Translations under genes and position numbers: made by a program
The notes under the pieces: model-generated
Database searches by the model: none
Seen by the model: the letters and a program-made list of their open reading frames with translations, nothing else
What the model was told of the DNA's origin: nothing
In this document: one piece after another, positions 6,049-19,017 of the stretch
Layout of the letters: every line of letters begins with the position of its first letter
Position numbering within the stretch: position 1 is the stretch's first letter
DNA from: Prosthecobacter gellanilyticus
Lineage (GTDB): Bacteria; Verrucomicrobiota; Verrucomicrobiia; Verrucomicrobiales; Verrucomicrobiaceae
DNA: 64,000 nt
Direction: 5' to 3'
Assembly (NCBI RefSeq): GCF_007992435.1
Contig: NZ_BKAG01000005.1
Coordinates: forward strand, 62,001-126,000

Positions 6049-8253
6049 TCAGATCCCTTTCGGCATCCACGCCTCCAGCTTGCTCACTTCAGCCTTCGCG
6101 TTGGCGCTGAAGGGCAGGCCCCAGAACTCCAGGAAGGGGGCGAGGTTCTTGCCGGTGATCTTGGAGTAGCGGATCAGGAACTGATCACGCGCGTCGTCGT
6201 CGTCCTTCGGTGCCGGGCCGTACTTGTCGTCGGCAAAGCTGTGCAGATACTTGCGCCAGGCTTCCCAACCAAAAGCATCGACAAGCTGGATGTAGGTCGT
6301 CAGGGCCAGGAAGGGGCTCTTCTTCCATTCGGCGAACTTGTCCTTCGCCGCCTTGATCTCCTCGATGTGCTTCTTCTGGCCTTCCAGCGAGGCTCCGGAG
6401 TGGCCGACGATCTTGTCCTTTTTCAGCACGGCCTCATAGCAATACATGCCGATGACGTTGTTCGTCACCTCGCCTGTGCCATCAAAGGTGAAGGTGGAGC
6501 GCTGGTGGTTGTGCCCGATTTCATGGTAGAAGCCCCAGCCGGGGAATTTGATGCGGCCGAAGGTTACCATCTCCGGAGCGGCACTCGTCGGGATCATGAT
6601 GGGATAACCGCTGTGCATGTAACCCGCGCTGATCTGGATGTCAGCCACGATGCGCTCAGGGCGTTTGCGCTCGGCGGTTTGATTGCTCAGGTCGTCCTGC
6701 GCCTCCACCACCTTCTTCCAGAATTCCATGAGCTCCGTGGGATTGTTGATCGTGCGCGCGACCTCCGTGGGACAGGAGACGATCAGCTTGTCACAGGCGA
6801 GCTCAGCCCAAGGCCCAGGCTGTTTCTTGATCTCGCTGGTCCACTGCGCATCCGTCGTCTGGCCTAACACAAAGAGTGGTGATGGAATGCCGCCTTTGAT
6901 GGTGGCGGTGAAAGATGCGGTTTCATCAGCACGACCTGGCACCACGATGTAGATGAGGCCGCCAAAGGCGCTCGCCGTCTTGGTTTCCGTAGCGGCGATG
7001 GTGACGGACTTGGTGATGTCCGGAGCGCGCTTCCATTCATCGAGATGATACAGGGTGTCGCTGTGGCAGCCGATACGCACCGCATAACCCTGAGCTGCAA
7101 TGGCCGTCGGCACGGTGACGCTGATGGTCTCGCCAGCCGCAGCATAGAGGCCTGTACTGGTCCATCCAGGGATCGTGGGATTCACGGAGACTTCACGCGT
7201 GATGCGCGGTGCATCCGCGGGCACCTTGCCGGGGAAGGCTTCATGAGCGGGGTGAGCTGTTGTGGTTTCGCCGCCGGCAAGCCGGAGCACACGTGTTTCC
7301 ATGCCCAGGCGCAGTCTCGCGGCATTATCCTTCGCGGCTGTGAGAGGAGCCTGGCCCGTTGGCACGGCGCTGGACGCACCGGTATTTCCCAGGGCTGCCA
7401 CCACGGCTTCACGCAGGCTGCTGCGGTCCGGTGGTTGCGCAGCCAGAGCGACCTGGATGGCATTCGTGCCTTGTTTGATGGCTGCTGCATCGAGGGCAGG
7501 GCCACCCTCACGCTGTTTCTTGATGGCCGTGATGGCCGTGGAGGCATTCATCATCAAGGGCAGCTCAGGGCGCGCATCAAAGCTGCGCAGCTGGTCAAAG
7601 GCGCTCGCTTCCGTGAAGGCCACGCCAGCGGGCATGAGCGCATTGTTCACACCATGTGCCAGGGTCAGTTCCTTGCCGCCGCTGGTCTGGCTGAAAGCCC
7701 AGCCCGTCATGCCAGCCATCACGCCGCCGCCCTTCTTGATGAACTCGGCCACGGCTGCGCCTTCCTCCGTGCCGGTGATGGACTGGATGTTCATCACCAC
7801 GACATCGAAGTCGTTGAGAGTCTTGGCATCCACCTTCTCAAAGGTCTCCGTGCGGAAACCCAGTTTCTCGTAGGCCTCAGGTTTCACGCCTTTCAAGCCG
7901 ACGCGCGGCTTGTCTTTCGCTCCGGCCCATTTTACGCAGTTCTCGATGAGCTTGGCATTGTCCCCCCCCGTGGTGCCGCTGAGGTAGCCGTTCTGGCCGA
8001 ACAAGATGATGCGCCCCTTGGCATACGCGGCTGCAGCCACCACCGCGAGCTCCACGCCGTCCTTGTCCGGTGCTGAGAGAATGGGGAAGGCCATGGTGCC
8101 CCAGATGGCGATGGGGCCTGGAGTACCCTGCTTGGGAACACTGGTCACGCCCTGGAGGATCTTGGATCTCTCCGCAGTGACGATCTCCGCGGGCATCTGG
8201 GCAAGGCAGGGGACTGTTCCAAGCAGGAGCAGCAGACAGGTTGGCAGTTTCAT
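6049..8253 (-). CDS. Secreted M60-family (enhancin/mucinase-like) metalloprotease
   Basis: A signal peptide (to about residue 18) is followed by a long N-terminal part with a glutamine-amidotransferase-like fold (GRIILFGQNGYLSG, then VVMNIQSITGTEEG). The C-terminal part carries the zincin motif HEIGH (His577-His581) with a further Glu at 595 in GTGEVTNN, the spacing expected for peptidase M60. Characterised M60 enzymes cleave glycoproteins such as mucins. The host-mucin role is not implied here, and a role against environmental glycoproteins is inferred. It lies 17 bp downstream of the XRE-cupin regulator on the same strand, probably in one operon. Confidence 0.85.
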   Translation of the reverse strand: MKLPTCLLLLLGTVPCLAQMPAEIVTAERSKILQGVTSVPKQGTPGPIAIWGTMAFPILSAPDKDGVELAVVAAAAYAKGRIILFGQNGYLSGTTGGDNAKLIENCVKWAGAKDKPRVGLKGVKPEAYEKLGFRTETFEKVDAKTLNDFDVVVMNIQSITGTEEGAAVAEFIKKGGGVMAGMTGWAFSQTSGGKELTLAHGVNNALMPAGVAFTEASAFDQLRSFDARPELPLMMNASTAITAIKKQREGGPALDAAAIKQGTNAIQVALAAQPPDRSSLREAVVAALGNTGASSAVPTGQAPLTAAKDNAARLRLGMETRVLRLAGGETTTAHPAHEAFPGKVPADAPRITREVSVNPTIPGWTSTGLYAAAGETISVTVPTAIAAQGYAVRIGCHSDTLYHLDEWKRAPDITKSVTIAATETKTASAFGGLIYIVVPGRADETASFTATIKGGIPSPLFVLGQTTDAQWTSEIKKQPGPWAELACDKLIVSCPTEVARTINNPTELMEFWKKVVEAQDDLSNQTAERKRPERIVADIQISAGYMHSGYPIMIPTSAAPEMVTFGRIKFPGWGFYHEIGHNHQRSTFTFDGTGEVTNNVIGMYCYEAVLKKDKIVGHSGASLEGQKKHIEEIKAAKDKFAEWKKSPFLALTTYIQLVDAFGWEAWRKYLHSFADDKYGPAPKDDDDARDQFLIRYSKITGKNLAPFLEFWGLPFSANAKAEVSKLEAWMPKGI

Positions 8254-10969: not shown

Positions 10970-12226
10970 TCAGTTCGACACGGGAGGCAGCAATGGGTTC
11001 ACGCCGCCCCCGGGCACGGTCTGGGGCGCTGGCGAACCGAAGTCCAGAAGGTCGCGCGGCTCAGCGGCGACGTCCTGGAGCTTGTGCTGATAGTAAAGCC
11101 GCACGACGTAACCATGATAAGCACGGCGTCCGTGGGCGGCGATCTCTCCCGGGGTGAGTGCCGGCAGGAAATAGGTGACATCGAGCGGCTCTTCACCAAT
11201 GCCGCTCCAGTCCACCGGGGGGGCACCCCAGGCAGACAAGGGTTCATCCGCGATGGTCTGGGCGATTTTCTCGCCGTTCACGCGGTCAAAAAAGTACACG
11301 TCGATATCCACCTGCGAAGGGTCGATGGCATCGTTGCCTTGACGCAGGATGGGGACGCGGAGCACGACCTTCTCCCCGTTCACGGCGGAGGGATCGCGAT
11401 TGGCCGAGCAGGCTCCCAGGGAGAGCGCTTTCGACCCGAAGCTGCCTGTGAAAGCAGGCGCGGAGGCACCTGGAGAGGTGCCGTCGATATTGAGTTTGCG
11501 TTTGGCCAGGTCGCCATAGCCACCGGCACGCGTCGCGTCCATGGCAGCGAGCTGCTTCCAGTGGGAGACAGCTTTGTCAGACAGGCCCATCTGCTCATAG
11601 CTCTGGGCGGTTTCAGCGATGACCTCCGGTGTGGCCGGAAACTGCAGGTCGGCACGCTTCAGCACCTCCAGGGCGCCTTGCATGTCACCGAGAGAGCGCA
11701 CCTGCTTCGCCAGATCCACCATCTCAGCCAGGCTCATGTTCGCGGCAGGATCACCACCCTTCGCTGTGGCAGCGCCGGGAGGTGGCGGTGCGGTGCGAGG
11801 AGGTTGACCCGCCGCAGGGCGGCTTTGCGCCATGGCTGGCGGAGCCACCGGTGAGGTGATCGGAGCGGCGGGAGCCACAGGAATCGTGGGAGTCATTTGC
11901 AGACTGCCCACGGGTGGCGGCCCGAAACCTGACGGTGCAGGCGCAGTGATCAGTCCTGCTGGAGGCGGAGCCACAGGCGCGGCCAGCTGGCCGACGGGCG
12001 GAGGGCTGATGCTCACAGGAGGTGCGGTGAGCGTCAGTTGCGGCATCAAAAGGGGCTGCTGAGTAGGGGTGATGACGGGAGTCATCGCAGGAGGGGTGCC
12101 AGGATGCCGGAGCACCGCGCGCACCAGGAGGCCGGACTCCACCGCCACGAGGGCGCAAAGAATCCCCAGAGCCACTTGATTTGCACGGCCCCGGTCAGCA
12201 CAGGGGATGGGGGGGGAGGAAGCCAT
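10970..12226 (-). CDS. Membrane-anchored proline-rich protein with TPR-like repeats
   Basis: An N-terminal membrane anchor (VALGILCALVAVESGLLV, about residues 18-35) leads to a Pro/Ala-rich linker of about 120 residues. Two TPR-like helical repeats follow (MVDLAKQVRSLGDMQGALEV and EVIAETAQSYEQMGLSDKAV). The C-terminal beta-rich domain of about 150 residues (VDIDVYFFDRVNGEKIAQ, then HGYVVRLYYQHK) I do not recognise. It is probably co-transcribed with the downstream pseudokinase-FGE gene and may be its partner. That link is inferred from adjacency only. Confidence 0.7.
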   Translation of the reverse strand: MASSPPIPCADRGRANQVALGILCALVAVESGLLVRAVLRHPGTPPAMTPVITPTQQPLLMPQLTLTAPPVSISPPPVGQLAAPVAPPPAGLITAPAPSGFGPPPVGSLQMTPTIPVAPAAPITSPVAPPAMAQSRPAAGQPPRTAPPPPGAATAKGGDPAANMSLAEMVDLAKQVRSLGDMQGALEVLKRADLQFPATPEVIAETAQSYEQMGLSDKAVSHWKQLAAMDATRAGGYGDLAKRKLNIDGTSPGASAPAFTGSFGSKALSLGACSANRDPSAVNGEKVVLRVPILRQGNDAIDPSQVDIDVYFFDRVNGEKIAQTIADEPLSAWGAPPVDWSGIGEEPLDVTYFLPALTPGEIAAHGRRAYHGYVVRLYYQHKLQDVAAEPRDLLDFGSPAPQTVPGGGVNPLLPPVSN

Positions 12227-12278
12227 GCCGATTGCCGCAGGAAAATCGTATGGTACGGTCCCCGCTCACCAGTTGTCA

Positions 12279-13547
12279 ATGCCCCAGACTTTTTCTCCCG
12301 AATCTCCCCGCGGTTTGTCCGCAGGCGGGAGCGTGTGGAAATCGTTGATAATCAATAGGAATGTGGTCCAAATAGCCGCCCTTTTGGCACATTCATCTGG
12401 TTTTGTATGGCTCGATAGTGCCATGCCGGGCCAGGGCAGTGTTTCCATCCTGACGGCACGTCCCCGGGCTATTATTCGGGGCCACATTGACCAGGACTGG
12501 AAACTTGTGGAGGCGACTCTGGCGCAGGAACAAGCCGCCGCTGCTCCCGGAGGTCTCTTCGGTTGGGTCGGCTTTGACGGGCAGTTCACCCTCGGAGTCT
12601 ATGAGGCAGCCCTGAGTTATGATCACGACTCCGGCATGTGGAGCGGCATGGGGGATATCGATGCCCTTCTATCCTCTGGTGATTCTCAGACGGCTGACGC
12701 GCACACGAATGACTGGGAGCTTCTCGATTTCGTGCCGAAGGTCTCGAAGTCGGCCTACACAGAGGCAGTGAGCCGTGCCCAGGAATACATCGCCGCAGGA
12801 GACATCTACCAGGTGAACCTCTCCCACCCCTGGCAGGCACCCTGGCCTGCGGACACGGACTTCTGGCCCTTCTACCTGCGCCTGCGCGAGGTATCTCCCG
12901 CACCGCACGCGGCTTGTCTGAATCTCGATGACACCACCGTCCTCTCGGCCTCGCCCGAGCTGTTTTTAAAATTGGATGGGCGGACGATCACCACACGCCC
13001 CATCAAAGGCACACGCCCGCGATTCCCGGATGATCCCATCCGCGATGCTGCCAGCGCCCGCGAGCTGCCTCTGTGTGAAAAAGAGCGCGCCGAGCTGCTC
13101 ATGATCACGGACCTGGAGCGCAATGACCTCGGCAAGGTGTGCGAGTTCGGCAGCGTGCAGACGCCGGATCTCTGGCGCGTGGAAAGTTTCCCGCAGGTCT
13201 ACCATCTCGTCTCCACGGTCACGGGAACTTTGAAGCCCGGCATCAGCCATGCCGCGGCCTTCCGTGCCTGCTTCCCCGGCGGCAGCATCAGCGGCGCGCC
13301 AAAGAAGCGCGCGCTGGAGATCATTGCCGAGCTCGAAAAACATCCGCGCGGTCTTTACACCGGCGCCATCGGCTACTTCGGCTTTGATGGCAGCAGCCAG
13401 TGGAACATCGCCATCCGCACCGCCGTGCAAAAGGACGGCGAGATCAGCTTCCACGCCGGCTCGGGCATCGTCGCAGACAGCATCCCCGAGCGCGAGTGGG
13501 AGGAAACACTGCACAAGGCCAGCGGCATCTTGAGCGCGTGGTCGTGA
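12279..13547 (+). CDS. pabB: Aminodeoxychorismate synthase component I
   Basis: A chorismate-binding enzyme making 4-amino-4-deoxychorismate for folate. Key motifs are PIKGTRPR, DLERNDLGKVC, PGGSISGAPKKRA, YTGAIGYFG and HAGSGIVADS. The Lys in PIKGT (about residue 243 from this start) is the nucleophile characteristic of PabB; anthranilate synthase TrpE has Ala there (PIAGT). The glutaminase PabA is not nearby. The start is uncertain: ATG 12279, GTG 12333 and GTG 12363 are in frame, and a longer form from 12207 would overlap the divergent gene. No fused lyase (PabC) domain follows. Confidence 0.88.
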   Translation: MPQTFSPESPRGLSAGGSVWKSLIINRNVVQIAALLAHSSGFVWLDSAMPGQGSVSILTARPRAIIRGHIDQDWKLVEATLAQEQAAAAPGGLFGWVGFDGQFTLGVYEAALSYDHDSGMWSGMGDIDALLSSGDSQTADAHTNDWELLDFVPKVSKSAYTEAVSRAQEYIAAGDIYQVNLSHPWQAPWPADTDFWPFYLRLREVSPAPHAACLNLDDTTVLSASPELFLKLDGRTITTRPIKGTRPRFPDDPIRDAASARELPLCEKERAELLMITDLERNDLGKVCEFGSVQTPDLWRVESFPQVYHLVSTVTGTLKPGISHAAAFRACFPGGSISGAPKKRALEIIAELEKHPRGLYTGAIGYFGFDGSSQWNIAIRTAVQKDGEISFHAGSGIVADSIPEREWEETLHKASGILSAWS

Positions 13548-15317
13548 TCACTTCGGATCCAGGAAGATCGTCTCCTCGTCAGCACGCAGCGTGCAGTCGA
13601 TCTGAGTGGCGATTTCCTGGAGCACTTCCGGCAGCGGTTTGTTAAGGTGGAAGGAGACCAGCTTGTCACCCTGGAGCTTCGGCAGGACAATGCGAACACC
13701 TTTTTTGTTAGGGTCGAGAGTCTTGCTGTCCCCGGCCAGATAGTTCAGGACGTCTCCGGCGTCGGCCTTGTAAAAGTGATAGTCCACGGTCCGGAAGGTT
13801 TGCGCACGGTCCAGGGCCGTGGTGGTGATCACGGGAGCATCGACCAGGGATGGCGTGACCGTGTGCAGCGTGCGTTCTTCCTTGTTCCAGACCGCGACCG
13901 TTTCACCTGGAGCCAGATCAATGGCGGAGCGGTTCACGTGGGACCGTGCGATGGGATAGTCGATACCATTCAAGGCCTCATAACCGATGATCTTTGAGTT
14001 CGTGATATCGATATCGAGATGGATCCGGTCGTTCAGCAAACGCGGCTTGAATTTGGCGACGCAGCCGATGGGCAGATAGGTGATCCCCGTGGGCTGGCTG
14101 GGATCGTTGACCGGTGTGTTCACCACGCTTCGCACAACGACTTCCTGATCATTCTTCGTCACAAGCCGTGGCCATGACACGGTCTTGAACTTAGCGTTCT
14201 TCCGCAGCTGCCCCAGTTCGCTGACGCTCATGATTCGGAAGGTGTCAGTGTCGGTGAAAAGCCCGGCGGCATCGACTTCAGAAATGATCTGCATCTCCAC
14301 ACCAATGAACGGCTCCTCCGTCTTCACGACCTCCGCTTTCGTGGCGATGACACCCGTGAGTGCTATCAGGAGCACCACAGCACCCAGTGCCGCCATCCGA
14401 TGCGTGCGTGCGGGACTGGCGATGCCTTGGATGCGGCGATGAAGAGATCTGCCAGGCTCAAAAATGCCCACAAAGCCCAGGTTCCAACCCTGCATGCCGG
14501 AGGCCGATTGTGCCTTCAAAAGCGCGAGGCCGTAGGTGTGCCGGCGGCCAGGACCATCGTGGCGCAGCACATCCGCATCACAGGCAGCTTCGCGGTCGGC
14601 ACGCGCCCGATGAAAGGCCAGCCAGAGGAGAGGATTGAACCAATGCAGTGCCATGAGGCAGCACAGCAGCGAGTTCATGAGCAGGTCACCACGCCGCAGA
14701 TGAGTGAGCTCATGCTTGAGGATCAAGCTGGCCTCAGCGGGCGTGAAGCTCTCCGCAAAATCCAGCGGCAACAGCAACACAGGGCGGAAGACTCCCGCCA
14801 CCGCCGGACTGGCCACGGCCGCAGACTGCCAGAGCCGGGGCCCCTTCCTCAGGCGGAGCTCGCGTGAGAGGCTCTCCACCTCCTGCAAGAGGTCTGTAGT
14901 AGGTTGCACAGCCGTTTTTTGAATTCGCCGAAGTGTGAGGGCGAAGGAGAAAGCTCCCCCGAGCGTGAGCACCAGCGCTCCACCCATCGCGAGGCACGGC
15001 CACACGGGCCAGCTTAGTGTTTCGGAGTGCTCCGGCACGCTGACGATCTGGCCGGCCGGCTCGGCAGAAGCAGCTTCCTGCGAACTCGCCTCAAAATGGG
15101 CAGGTGCTGCCAGGATCAGACTTTCCGCGCTCCACCGGCTCTCTGGCAGCGCTGGCATCAGCAGGATCACCAGCACCGGGAGCCACAAGGTGTGCAACCA
15201 GCGGGCACTCAGATAACGCCGCAACAGGCGCTGTAGCACCAGCACCACGAGACAAAGCGCTGAAGCGCGCAAACTGGCCTGGAACAGCCAGTCAAAAAGG
15301 AGATTGAGGATAGGCAT
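13548..15317 (-). CDS. M56-family (BlaR1/MecR1-type) membrane peptidase with secretin-like C-terminal domain
   Basis: The N-terminal 330 residues contain about four membrane spans and a gluzincin site, HELTH (202-206), with a downstream Glu (REAACD, about 243), as in BlaR1/MecR1. The C-terminal 240 residues outside the membrane are not a penicillin-binding domain. They resemble STN/secretin-N-like modules (FRTVDYHFYKADAGDVLNYL, then LPEVLQEIATQIDCTLRADE), an arrangement frequent in Verrucomicrobiota. It should relay an extracytoplasmic signal by cleaving a BlaI-type repressor. No blaI is adjacent, although two BlaI-type operators lie about 90-125 bp upstream. It is convergent with pabB with no gap. 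Confidence 0.82.
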   Translation of the reverse strand: MPILNLLFDWLFQASLRASALCLVVLVLQRLLRRYLSARWLHTLWLPVLVILLMPALPESRWSAESLILAAPAHFEASSQEAASAEPAGQIVSVPEHSETLSWPVWPCLAMGGALVLTLGGAFSFALTLRRIQKTAVQPTTDLLQEVESLSRELRLRKGPRLWQSAAVASPAVAGVFRPVLLLPLDFAESFTPAEASLILKHELTHLRRGDLLMNSLLCCLMALHWFNPLLWLAFHRARADREAACDADVLRHDGPGRRHTYGLALLKAQSASGMQGWNLGFVGIFEPGRSLHRRIQGIASPARTHRMAALGAVVLLIALTGVIATKAEVVKTEEPFIGVEMQIISEVDAAGLFTDTDTFRIMSVSELGQLRKNAKFKTVSWPRLVTKNDQEVVVRSVVNTPVNDPSQPTGITYLPIGCVAKFKPRLLNDRIHLDIDITNSKIIGYEALNGIDYPIARSHVNRSAIDLAPGETVAVWNKEERTLHTVTPSLVDAPVITTTALDRAQTFRTVDYHFYKADAGDVLNYLAGDSKTLDPNKKGVRIVLPKLQGDKLVSFHLNKPLPEVLQEIATQIDCTLRADEETIFLDPK

Positions 15318-15404
15318 GGCAGGCGCTGGCAGGGTTCAGGTTGCTGTGGCACGATGTCCGAGCTGTCTCATGGCTCTGGAAGTTCTCGGAATTAAATCCA
15401 TCTC

Positions 15405-15441
15405 ACTACATTTGTCGTGATATGGCAACTACAAATGTAGT
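15405..15441. promoter_or_regulatory. Two BlaI/MecI-type operator sites
   Basis: Site 1 is ACTACATTTGTCGT at 15405-15418. Site 2 is ACTACAAATGTAGT at 15428-15441, a perfect dyad with the TACA-n2-TGTA core. Centres are 23 bp apart, about two helical turns. TACA/TGTA dyads are what BlaI/MecI repressors bind. They lie between the divergent M56 gene (start 15317) and the small lipoprotein gene (start 15522), so one repressor could control both. The identification is by motif and context. Confidence 0.7.
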
Positions 15442-15521
15442 GACGTGGTTCTGCCATCCCTTGTCAAAGGGACAAAGCGCTTCTTGCCAGGATGCGGACT
15501 ACGGCCCAGCGTCTCGTCCCC

Positions 15522-15647
15522 ATGAAACGCTACCTCCTTCCAGCCATCCTCGTCGTCGCCACCTTGTTTGTCTCCAGCTGCCGCAGCCCCAAGGGCAATG
15601 TGAACTACATGCAGATGGGCAAGGGCCGCCCAAACCTTGTCCAGTAA
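15522..15647 (+). CDS. Small lipoprotein (41 aa), entericidin-like size
   Basis: A frame from ATG 15522 to TAA 15645-15647 encodes 41 residues: a basic start (MKRY), a hydrophobic core (LLPAILVVATLFV) and the lipobox VSSC with Cys20. The mature peptide of only 22 residues begins CRSPKGNVNYMQMGKG and ends NLVQ. The clean lipoprotein signal makes this a credible gene despite its size. It lies 81 bp downstream of the BlaI-type operators and divergent from the M56 peptidase, so it is a candidate target of that regulatory system. Its function is unknown. Confidence 0.65.
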   Translation: MKRYLLPAILVVATLFVSSCRSPKGNVNYMQMGKGRPNLVQ

Positions 15648-15697: not shown

Positions 15698-15740
15698 TTT
15701 TCTTCCTATAGCGCGAGAAAAACACGTTATAGGAAGAAAA
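15698..15740. terminator. Inverted repeat between convergent genes, probable terminator
   Basis: A perfect 13-bp stem, ttttcttcctata (15698-15710) with tataggaagaaaa (15728-15740), encloses a 17-nt loop. It lies in the 118-bp gap between the convergent small lipoprotein and Tat-protein genes, so transcription termination in both directions is the simplest reading. There is no long T tract outside the stem, and a protein-binding dyad is also possible. Confidence 0.5.
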
Positions 15741-15765
15741 TCACCAGCGCTCTGGTTCTTGAAAA

Positions 15766-17310
15766 TCAAACACCCAGCAGTTCACGCGCCTCAGCCTGAC
15801 CTGGTGCTGGCCTGCCAAACTCGCTGGCAGTGACACGCGCGAGCGCACTGAGATGACGCCAGCGGAAGGCGGCACGGGTGCGGTGAAATTCGTCGTGGCA
15901 GGTCTGGTAATATTTCTCGGCATGCAGCGCGCCATCCTCGCTGATGGCGTAAGTGCGCAGCGCCTCCAGCACCGGCTCCGCAGGCAGGTTCAGCAGACCC
16001 CAGCGATGCACCACCGCAGCGGCGTGTGACTGGAGACTGCCTTTGATCATGGTGTGCAGTTCGGACAGCAGCTTGGCCTGATCCGTGGAAGTGACGAGGC
16101 CGATCTGCCGCTTCGAGGGCATCGGTTCCCAATCGAGGAACGGCTGATATTGCCGGTCACGAGCGATCTGCCAGGCAGCCAGGATGAGGCAGGCAAAGAC
16201 GTTCCTTCCCTGGCTGACCGAAGAGAGGTTGCGCCAGGCATGGGTCGAGTCGCTTGAATGCACGCCTACCGAATCTCCATGCACGCTGCCCGTGGGTTTG
16301 CCAGGAAACTCCCACTCCGGCGGCCTGCCATGATCACGTAACACAAACTGGTTCGCCGCCAGAGAGATGGCCTCACCAACCTCATGCGGGTCCAGACCTT
16401 CCGCGAGCGCGGCCGCCACAGCTCCCGACGCCTCTTCGGGAGACCCTTTGAAGATCGTCATGGCGAGTTTCTCGACCGTGCCATCGTCCATCGCCTTGGT
16501 GCCCGGATCACGCCCCAGCAGCTTGTGCTCATCCAGCAGTTTCGTGAGCATGCCGGCGTGTTCATCCCACTCAGGCTGGCGGCTCTTTTCCGCATTCAGG
16601 CAGTAGCGCAGGGACATGCGCAGCATGGTGGTGGCATGCTCGCGCCCCACCAGATCCAGCAGATCCCAGGCACGATAGGGCAGCACGGTGCGGTGCACCT
16701 CCGGGCAGTCCTGCACGCATTCCAGCAGCGCGTTGAAACCGGCGTCCGCATCCTGATGCATCATCGTGGCAAACATCGCCTCAGCCTTCGCGGTGTCCTT
16801 GCTCTTCACCACCTCATGCAGTTGCTGTGCGCTGGGCTTGTCTGTTCCATGAGCCACGGGATGCAGCACCTCATCATCACGTCCGCCGTTTTCCTGGATG
16901 CGGTTGGTGTTTCGATACAGCACCTTGAAGACGGGCAGTGCCTGTTCTTTCTCCGGCAGCGTGGCGGACATTTTCAAACACGGCCCCAGCGCCATCAGCG
17001 TGTGAAAGCCGATGTAGTCCTCTCCGCCGAAGGTACGCGCATTCGCCAGCACGCCGGCGGCCACGAGCTTTTTTAAGGGGACGCCTTCCTTGAGCTTGCC
17101 AGCCAGGGCAGGCTGGAACTTGGAGATCGGCGTCTCCTGCATGAAGCAGACGAGCGGTTCCATGTCCCCGAAGCTCAAGGCGGCAGGTGCTTCAGCAGCG
17201 GCGGCGGATGTGATGCCAAGCTCCGCGCCAAGCGCAGGGCCGATGGTGGCTAACAGTGTGCCCTGACCCACCTCAGTCAGAAAGCGACGACGGGAACGTG
17301 GTTCATTCAT
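15766..17310 (-). CDS. Tat-exported protein of unknown function (514 aa)
   Basis: The N-terminus has a twin-arginine signal (RSRRRFLTEVGQGTLLATIGPALG). The rest is helical, without membrane spans, and matches no family I can name. Conserved-looking His and Cys segments are visible (HPVAHGTD, MMHQDADAGF, LRDHGRPPEWEF, YYQTCHDEFHRTR). Tat export suggests a cofactor bound in the cytoplasm. An AGGGAGG lies 6-7 bases before the ATG, one of the few clear Shine-Dalgarno sites in this window. The gene is divergent from the membrane-protein pair at 17429. Confidence 0.7.
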   Translation of the reverse strand: MNEPRSRRRFLTEVGQGTLLATIGPALGAELGITSAAAAEAPAALSFGDMEPLVCFMQETPISKFQPALAGKLKEGVPLKKLVAAGVLANARTFGGEDYIGFHTLMALGPCLKMSATLPEKEQALPVFKVLYRNTNRIQENGGRDDEVLHPVAHGTDKPSAQQLHEVVKSKDTAKAEAMFATMMHQDADAGFNALLECVQDCPEVHRTVLPYRAWDLLDLVGREHATTMLRMSLRYCLNAEKSRQPEWDEHAGMLTKLLDEHKLLGRDPGTKAMDDGTVEKLAMTIFKGSPEEASGAVAAALAEGLDPHEVGEAISLAANQFVLRDHGRPPEWEFPGKPTGSVHGDSVGVHSSDSTHAWRNLSSVSQGRNVFACLILAAWQIARDRQYQPFLDWEPMPSKRQIGLVTSTDQAKLLSELHTMIKGSLQSHAAAVVHRWGLLNLPAEPVLEALRTYAISEDGALHAEKYYQTCHDEFHRTRAAFRWRHLSALARVTASEFGRPAPGQAEARELLGV

Positions 17311-17370: not shown

Positions 17371-17407
17371 TTGAAAATATTTTCAAACCACTTTGAACGA
17401 CAAAGTG
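17371..17407. promoter_or_regulatory. Two dyads in a divergent intergenic region
   Basis: ttgaaaatattttcaa at 17371-17386 is a perfect 16-bp palindrome. Immediately after it, cactttg (17389-17395) and caaagtg (17401-17407) form a 7-bp inverted repeat around 5 nt. Both lie between the divergent Tat-protein gene (start 17310) and the membrane-protein gene (start 17429), where operators are expected. The bound regulator is unknown. Confidence 0.5.
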
Positions 17408-17428
17408 AATGGCTTTGACGAACGAGTC

Positions 17429-18262
17429 ATGTCTCATGATTCACCTCATCTCGCCCGGCTGCGTCTGCTGGCCCGGGGCGAGCCCGAGGCACTGGCAGGC
17501 TGGCTGAGGCAGACGCTGACGCGCGAGACTCTGCTGACTCTGATTGTCACCATCATCGCAGGTTGTGCGCTCTATGGATTTGGGCTGGGGCTCTGGAGGG
17601 CGCCGCTGCAGGGAGTGTTTGTGGCCGTGAAGATGCCGCTGCTGATCTTCCTCACGCTGCTCGTGAATGGTTTGATCAATGGCATGCTCGGCCTGCTGCT
17701 CGGCTCAGGCATGTCCTTCCGGCAGACGGTGGTGGCCTGCTTGATGAGCTTTGCCATCTTCAGCCTCATCGTAGGTTCCTTCAGCCCGCTCATCATCCTC
17801 TGGGTGCTGGACTCTCCACCTCCAGGGCAGCCCGGAGGTGCGGAGTGGTACCGCATCTTTTTGTTGGGCAATACCGCCATCATCGCCTTCGCCGGCATCG
17901 TGGCCAACCACAAGCTCCTGGGCTTGATCCAGGCCTTCTCGGGCGATGCGGCCGCAGGCTGGCGCACGCTCGTCGCGTGGCTGGCGGGGAATCTCTTCGT
18001 CGGTGCCCAGCTCTCCTACATCCTGCGGCCCTTCTTTGGGAATCCTGAACTGCCTGTGCAGTTCCTGCGACCGAATCCCCTGGAAGGAAATTTCTATGAG
18101 GCCGTGTGGGGCATGCTGCGAGCGAGCATCGGGCCTGATTCCCAAGTGCCCGTCACAATCTTGACGATCATGCTCATCGCCACCGCGATGGCAGCCATCT
18201 CAAACCACATGGCCAAACAGGCCGGCAAGGCCTTCAAGCCCATTCACCCCCCACCACCATGA
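17429..18262 (+). CDS. Multi-span membrane protein, Yip1-like
   Basis: About 277 residues with five or six predicted membrane spans (LLTLIVTIIAGCALYGFGLGL, PLLIFLTLLVNGLINGMLGLLL, VACLMSFAIFSLIVGSF, IAFAGIVANHKLLGL, and one near the C-terminus). It resembles the loose Yip1/DUF membrane families without a diagnostic motif. I chose ATG 17429 over an in-frame TTG at 17393, which sits inside the inverted repeat. Its stop overlaps the start of the next gene (ATGA), so the two are translationally coupled. Confidence 0.7.
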   Translation: MSHDSPHLARLRLLARGEPEALAGWLRQTLTRETLLTLIVTIIAGCALYGFGLGLWRAPLQGVFVAVKMPLLIFLTLLVNGLINGMLGLLLGSGMSFRQTVVACLMSFAIFSLIVGSFSPLIILWVLDSPPPGQPGGAEWYRIFLLGNTAIIAFAGIVANHKLLGLIQAFSGDAAAGWRTLVAWLAGNLFVGAQLSYILRPFFGNPELPVQFLRPNPLEGNFYEAVWGMLRASIGPDSQVPVTILTIMLIATAMAAISNHMAKQAGKAFKPIHPPPP

Positions 18263-19017
18263 ACACGGAATCCACACCACCTCCCGTTCCAGCGTCATCC
18301 ACACCTGAGGCTGCCAAGGCCGCAGGCATGAAAATTGAGCCCATGCAGGGTCCGCCCACGCTTCCCAATGTCGTCGAGGCCCTGCTCAAGCATCCCGGCA
18401 GATTGCTTCACGCGTTTCAGGAGGGTGGCAAAGGTGTGCCTGTGAAACTGGCGCTCAGCGCCTTGATCTCCCTGTCTGTTTTTGGGGTGCTTCTCGGCAC
18501 CTTCTCCGGTGGCACCCAGCTCTGGGCAGCACCCTTGAAGATCACCATCGGCATGCTGGTGGCTGTGCTGATCTGTTTCCCGAGTCTGTACATCTTCAGC
18601 GCCCTGGATGGACTGAATGCGCGTGTGCATCAGATCGCTTCCGTCCTGCTAGGCATGGTCGCGCTGACGGCATTGCTGCTGCTCGGATTCGCACCGGTGA
18701 TCTGGGTCTTCAGCACGTCTACAGACTCCCTGGGCTTCATCGGCTTCCTCGTGCTCATGTTCTGGATCATCGGCCTCTTCTTTGGCGCTCGACTGCTCAC
18801 CGGAGCGGCCTCGGTCATTGGTTCAGAGTCCTCGGGTTATCTCAAGATCTGGATCGCCATCTTCACCATCGTCACCTTCCAGATGTCCACCTCGCTGCGG
18901 CCTTTGATCGGCACCTCGGAGACCTTCCTGCCCACGGAGAAAAAGTTCTTTCTCGAACACTGGATGCATCACATGGATGCCGATGCCACTCCGGCCGTCA
19001 GAACGCCCTCACGCTGA
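18259..19017 (+). CDS. Multi-span membrane protein, paralogue of the preceding gene
   Basis: 252 residues: a Pro/Ala-rich cytoplasmic N-terminus of about 60 residues, then five predicted membrane spans. It shares the layout and local phrases of its upstream neighbour (a W-x-A-P-L segment after the first span, then a SLRPLIG segment near the end against ILRPFFG), so the pair probably arose by duplication. The ATG overlaps the upstream stop by 4 bp. The 3' end overlaps the convergent porin gene by 20 bp. Function unknown; the two may form a heteromeric membrane complex. Confidence 0.65.
   Translation: MNTESTPPPVPASSTPEAAKAAGMKIEPMQGPPTLPNVVEALLKHPGRLLHAFQEGGKGVPVKLALSALISLSVFGVLLGTFSGGTQLWAAPLKITIGMLVAVLICFPSLYIFSALDGLNARVHQIASVLLGMVALTALLLLGFAPVIWVFSTSTDSLGFIGFLVLMFWIIGLFFGARLLTGAASVIGSESSGYLKIWIAIFTIVTFQMSTSLRPLIGTSETFLPTEKKFFLEHWMHHMDADATPAVRTPSR

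Follow-up and report, generated by a model that had tools for sequence, protein, structure and literature searches.

A candidate satellite M56 receptor of Prosthecobacter gellanilyticus whose gene carries the operator pair of a blaI-M56 operon on another contig

According to the available portion of PMC9834060, the BlaR1-BlaI system of Staphylococcus aureus combines an M56 protease bearing the HExxH and ExxxD motifs with a BlaI-family repressor that is cleaved at the N101-F102 bond and acts at inverted-repeat operators. Cross-talk between the bla and mec systems, as described in the accessible part of PMC3406092, allows BlaI to control a second locus in trans. The BlaI_0696 regulon of Clostridium thermocellum comprises three promoters with two inverted-repeat motifs each and counts two BlaR1 genes, and its authors hold that the paired sites are required (PMC8457756, available text). 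The locus described here resembles the staphylococcal systems in its protease motifs, repressor family and inverted-repeat operators (PMC9834060, in part), and in that one repressor-receptor pair would act on a second locus in trans (PMC3406092, in part). Unlike in S. aureus, the receptor has a secretin-like domain, no penicillin-binding sensor and no adjoining blaI, and the second locus is another receptor rather than a resistance gene. The C. thermocellum regulon differs in that it belongs to a Firmicute and has other motif letters, and a lone BlaR1 gene under a copied operator is not stated in the available text of PMC8457756. A survey of the open literature listed no orphan M56 protein that a copied operator links to a distant BlaI, and nothing on orphan BlaR/M56 wiring or M56-secretin sensors.

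The window, that is, the whole 64,000-nucleotide stretch of DNA analysed (G000:C5:62001-126000), comes from a 7.65 Mb genome that is 99.93% complete. At 13548-15317 on the minus strand it encodes a 589-residue membrane metalloprotease of the M56 (BlaR1) type, which matches PF05569 with an E value of 2.9e-59 and 201.1 bits (cut-off 31). The zinc site HExxH...ExxxD is present as HELTH (residues 201-205) and EAACD (242-246), and H201, E202, H205, D210, E242, D246 and Y261 are invariant among 11 aligned proteins; these residues bear the same numbers as the S. aureus BlaR1 residues named in the part of PMC9834060 available. The Pfam and NCBIfam scans detected no penicillin-binding sensor domain, and the score against blaR1_generic, 146.9 bits, is under the cut-off of 400. 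Thus, the protein is of the M56 type and is not a beta-lactam BlaR1. The C-terminal sensor region matches the secretin family PF00263 narrowly above the cut-off (E 8.2e-7; 29.2 bits against 27.5). An AlphaFold model (mean pLDDT 70.7, pTM 0.47) retrieved BlaR1 with a best E value of 1e-8 and secretins with a best E value of 6e-7, at low whole-query TM-scores of 0.34 and 0.20, respectively. The C-terminal part is therefore described as secretin-like, a resemblance predicted from profile and model.

Two BlaI-type dyads lie between this gene and a divergent 41-codon lipoprotein gene, as the sequence-only reading had claimed. Their cores, CTACATTTGTCG (15406-15417) and CTACAAATGTAG (15429-15440), are spaced 23 bp from center to center. 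The M56-proximal dyad, CACTACATTTGTCGTG, spans 15404-15419 and has an exact copy at C74:12595-12610, and the M56-distal dyad, AACTACAAATGTAGTG, spans 15427-15442 and is identical at C74:12618-12633; neither is assigned a strand. The pair as a whole (15404-15442) is separated by 87 bp from the start codon of M56 and by 80 bp from that of the lipoprotein gene. The motif TACANNTGTA occurs once in the window, compared with 0.06 occurrences expected from dinucleotide shuffles.

The absence of blaI from the window, also asserted in the sequence-only reading, was borne out. The genome holds seven matches to the BlaI family (PF03965), on contigs C3, C4, C10 (two), C27, C45 and C74, all of them other than the window's own contig, C5. 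The genome-wide search for BlaI proteins called for by that reading thus found them encoded. The nine M56 matches outnumber these repressors: seven lie 37-240 bp from a BlaI match, and the window M56 and a second protein on contig C52 lack one, so that the BlaI nearest to the window M56 is on another contig. Paired inverted repeats, in part listed by the dyad search and in part read by eye, precede the blaI genes. They are CTACA-type for C74 and for the first C10 gene (C10a), GGATTAC-type for the second (C10b), ACGACA-type for C45, TTGAAA-type for C27 and C4, and TGCAG..CTGCA for C3. All 32 dyad bases of the window pair are equal to those in the promoter of the C74 blaI-M56 operon. The best placements of the pair on the other six blaI promoters have 14-17 mismatches, the same as shuffles.

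C74 BlaI belongs to the BlaI/MecI repressors, with a Penicillinase_R domain scoring 111.6 bits (cut-off 22.6) and a match to the solved BlaI structure 1sd4 at E 7.5e-17. It aligns to S. aureus BlaI over 6-122, and the Phe that follows the cleavage bond is retained, as HF. The segment WAENTVRTLL is identical in 23 of 23 C74-type orthologues and different in the six other BlaI proteins of the genome. That another BlaI controls the window pair, most plausibly C10a, or that several do so jointly, is a quite improbable alternative. The C10a promoter has cores of a related kind, CTACAAGCGTAG and CTACACTTGTAA, at a spacing of 22 bp, and TACANNTGTA-type cores are common to CopY, BlaI and MecI, with CopY binding across species, according to the part of PMC7253601 available. 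The best placement of the pair on the C10a promoter nevertheless has 16 of 32 mismatches, although the spacing was fixed at 23 bp in that test, and the recognition region of C10a differs (WKRPTVLTLL). The trans-acting BlaI proposed in the sequence-only reading is therefore supported and narrowed to one candidate, C74 BlaI; the 41-residue lipoprotein, proposed there as a member of its regulon, did not fare as well, for reasons given below. Downstream of the C74 blaI-M56 genes (L032:1-4830, minus strand), a frame of more than 1,600 codons with repeats was observed, which is autotransporter-like by eye.

The operator pair exceeds chance. A 37-base pair pattern, with up to 3 mismatches allowed, yielded 24 sites in 68 family genomes, whereas the backwards control yielded 0; the sites fall in 23 of the 68 genomes, and the other 318 of the 386 order genomes scanned contain none. 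Most of the relatives to which a name can be given are MAGs of Verrucomicrobiaceae and Prosthecobacter. Diverged or differently spaced operators escape this pattern, and a close M56 relative is present in 33 of the 68 genomes. Single dyads showed no enrichment in the genome scan, with 26 matches per strand against 488 for the backwards control. For YACKACANNTGTMGTR, exact matches occur at four places in the genome (the window, C74, C45 and C52); with 1 mismatch allowed, the backwards control again exceeds the pattern (36 against 9 per strand), in keeping with the lack of enrichment of single dyads. Two CTACANNTGTAG-type dyads 35 bp apart on contig C30 (L033:5803-5849), with the core as in the window, have as neighbors a gene for an Xre-like regulator and a large one that looks TraD-like. 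This pair was set aside and is probably the site of another repressor.

At 23 of the 24 pair sites the operators are followed by blaI, whose product is 79.7-100% identical to C74 BlaI, and then by M56; the exception is the window, where M56 follows directly. The pattern is asymmetric, and its direction relative to blaI or M56 is identical at all 24 sites, so that the window pair points toward M56. Judged against the conserved columns of the 24-locus alignment, the window retains 35 of 35 in the core; in the flanks, it retains 12 of 18 toward M56 and 1 of 3 toward the lipoprotein gene. Thus, the window M56 gene shares the 23-bp pair, the matching dyads and the polarity that characterize the C74-type regulon. 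The likely M56 promoter spans 15391-15428 on the minus strand, with TTGCCA at 15428-15423, a spacer of 17 nt and TGAGAT at 15405-15400; an alternative -10 element, TTTAAT (15396-15391, minus strand), is matched in position in 11 of the 24 loci. By eye, TTGCCA-like and TGAAAT-like hexamers are conserved among the 24 aligned loci. A simple sigma-70-like promoter scan found no match on either strand of the region and is therefore uninformative on the lipoprotein gene.

Bacterial lipoproteins are marked by a short signal peptide that ends in a lipobox cysteine. The 41-residue frame at 15522-15647 on the plus strand has this signature and is predicted to encode such a protein. The overlooked gene pointed out in the sequence-only reading is real: a search of the 67 other family genomes gave homologues (E<=0.1) in 10, with the G052 match weak, and C[RK]SPKGN, which includes the lipobox cysteine, is present in 10 of 10 aligned sequences. 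The dN values of close pairs are below dS (0.10 vs 1.0, 0.08 vs 0.57, 0.18 vs 1.09 and 0.02 vs 0.07). In relatives, the lipoprotein gene lies directly behind pabB on the same strand, without M56, in seven of eight regions fetched. The gap from the end of the pabB alignment to the lipoprotein gene is ~50-97 nt in these seven; the eighth, G016, shows no pabB. The window has a pabB-like gene at 12207-13547 on the plus strand (TIGR01824, 5e-104, under that model's cut-off), whose stop abuts the M56 stop. The pabB-lipoprotein junction is empty in G031 and six other relatives. The M56 cassette appears to have been inserted between pabB and the lipoprotein gene, with the pabB stop presumably marking its left edge, and the closeness of the lipoprotein gene to the operators seems to result from this insertion. 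It is thus probably an ancestral pabB neighbor and a bystander beside the operators.

In a modified form of the sequence-only reading, C74 BlaI might repress the lipoprotein gene as well as M56, the former having been captured when the cassette was inserted upstream. The 80 bp from the end of the operators to the lipoprotein ATG contain nothing else, which leaves room for such regulation, and pabB is now parted from the gene by a converging one. We consider this rather unlikely, as both the polarity and the flank conservation favor M56, and no full dyad was found within ~2-3 kb around any lipoprotein homologue outside the window. In G049, where the lipoprotein gene adjoins a 514-codon gene as it does in the window, the 402 nt before it, up to the contig end, contain no dyad. 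In addition, CTTGCC lies ~34 nt before the lipoprotein ATG and, by eye, also in G031, which suggests that the gene has retained its own short upstream region. Membership of the lipoprotein in a BlaI regulon is accordingly unsupported, given the polarity toward M56 and the relatives' dyad-free arrangement behind pabB.

The 514-codon gene (window 15766-17310) has no Pfam match. In G039, G040 and G036, the 514-codon gene is absent, and the gene pair that comes next in the window (17393-19017) stands behind the lipoprotein gene; it looks as if this gene was also inserted. Fourteen regions around the 514-codon gene, fetched by place, contain no pabB, M56 or lipoprotein gene. Behind the lipoprotein gene, at 15698-15741, a perfect 13-nt inverted repeat, TTTTCTTCCTATA...TATAGGAAGAAAA, was noted by eye and is possibly a terminator.

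A tree of the M56 domain was built from 30 rows, with G005_x omitted as too short and without three operator-linked M56 proteins of partial sequence (G022, G036 and G050). The window M56 is sister to the C74 M56 of its own genome (96/87), and the two are joined next by G031 (100/99). The window and C74 proteins can be aligned over the first 335 residues at 54% identity, and their sensor parts differ; ~530 residues align with the G031 protein at 49%. G031 has a single operator pair as well as the empty junction. Given the tree, the state of the G031 locus and the differing sensor parts, the window M56 likely arose by duplication with loss of blaI. Loss of blaI in place was also considered and rejected: the 73-nt leader holds no remnant, as 371 of 500 shuffles (C74) and 348 of 500 (G031 operon) scored equally well.

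The branch of the window M56 is 0.78 long, compared with 0.37 for the C74 M56. Such a long branch could reflect either relaxed constraint or a new function, and it counts against a role as satellite receptor, as do the leader free of any blaI remnant, the lack of enrichment of single dyads and the promoter scan that found no match. The gene may be a decaying duplicate whose operator was kept by recent descent and whose protein no longer signals; the orphan state and a sensor part unlike that of C74 point the same way. We give this explanation little credence, because the 589-codon frame is intact, the catalytic residues are intact at only 54% identity to C74 in the shared part, and the operator dyads are unchanged despite the divergence of the two M56 proteins.

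We think it probable, from the sequence comparisons, that the window M56 serves C74 BlaI in trans as a satellite receptor. A copied M56 gene of the C74 type would have landed between pabB and the lipoprotein gene, bringing along its promoter and operator pair and leaving blaI behind. C74 BlaI would bind the paired dyads, keeping the window M56 repressed along with the operon that encodes C74 BlaI itself. The window M56 protein, when signalled via its secretin-like extracytoplasmic domain, would cleave C74 BlaI and both promoters would open, and two receptors would thus feed one repressor. The lipoprotein gene would be a resident that the insertion has separated from pabB, and it is probably no target. 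Given the presence of one distant repressor's sites at an orphan M56 gene, a single repressor probably receives the reports of two sensors.

The C52 orphan follows the same logic and is counted in favor of the satellite assignment. Its gene (L036:3675-6116) encodes an M56 protein of 813 residues, with operators near 6193-6243 and no adjoining blaI. The C52 operator, ATACGACACTTGTCGTAT-N16-CCGACAAATGTCGTC, and that of the C45 blaI, ATACGACAAGTGTCGTAT-N16-CCGACATTTGTCGTC, share a 32-bp spacing; of 33 dyad positions, 4 are unequal, and all 4 are central bases of the dyads. Against the C52 operator, the remaining six blaI promoters have 14-18 mismatches. The C52/C45-type pair pattern occurs in 4 of 68 genomes. 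The C52 gene is like the window M56 gene in lacking an adjoining blaI and carrying the operator pair of a distant BlaI, and unlike it in its BlaI, operator code and M56 lineage. In the assembly, the M56 gene beside the C45 blaI (L038:4140-6227) is interrupted after the HExxH motif by a single in-frame TGA, and homology to the C52 M56 extends to either side of it; the TGA may be a sequencing error.

Among the matches listed, 51 of 68 family genomes have as many M56 as BlaI proteins (5 of them have neither), M56 exceeds BlaI in 11 and BlaI exceeds M56 in 6. An M56 gene without blaI was seen in 2 of 20 regions fetched (L178 and L180), in both cases at the edge of a contig. A single blaI is followed by M56 genes in tandem in G025 (L177:1675-5646, on its contig C45), in G060 (L182, on its contig C10) and, split over two contigs, in G050. 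The tandem operons of G025 and G050 likewise have two M56 receptors to a single C74-type BlaI and its operator pair. They differ in that the second M56 is in the operon and belongs to another clade, whereas the extra receptor of the window is at a separate locus.

Tentatively, and with rather more doubt than confidence, we propose that in these bacteria BlaI proteins are hubs with private operator codes, and that M56 receptors can spread through the genome as satellites, each linked to a hub by the operator pair that it carries. The two orphan M56 genes of the genome fit this pattern, each with a different hub, and C52 may have replaced the C45 receptor, whose frame is interrupted. The sensor domains of the receptors are secretin-like, so that they may respond to the condition of an envelope secretin or pilus machine and not to a beta-lactam. 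For an orphan receptor, the analysis yields a specific prediction of its wiring, namely which of seven repressors and which promoter. It also suggests a simple evolutionary route to circuits with one repressor and several sensors, in which the operator is copied with the receptor and the repressor is left behind. It points to BlaR1-like direct proteolysis coupled to a secretin-like sensor, for which the signal is probably not a beta-lactam.
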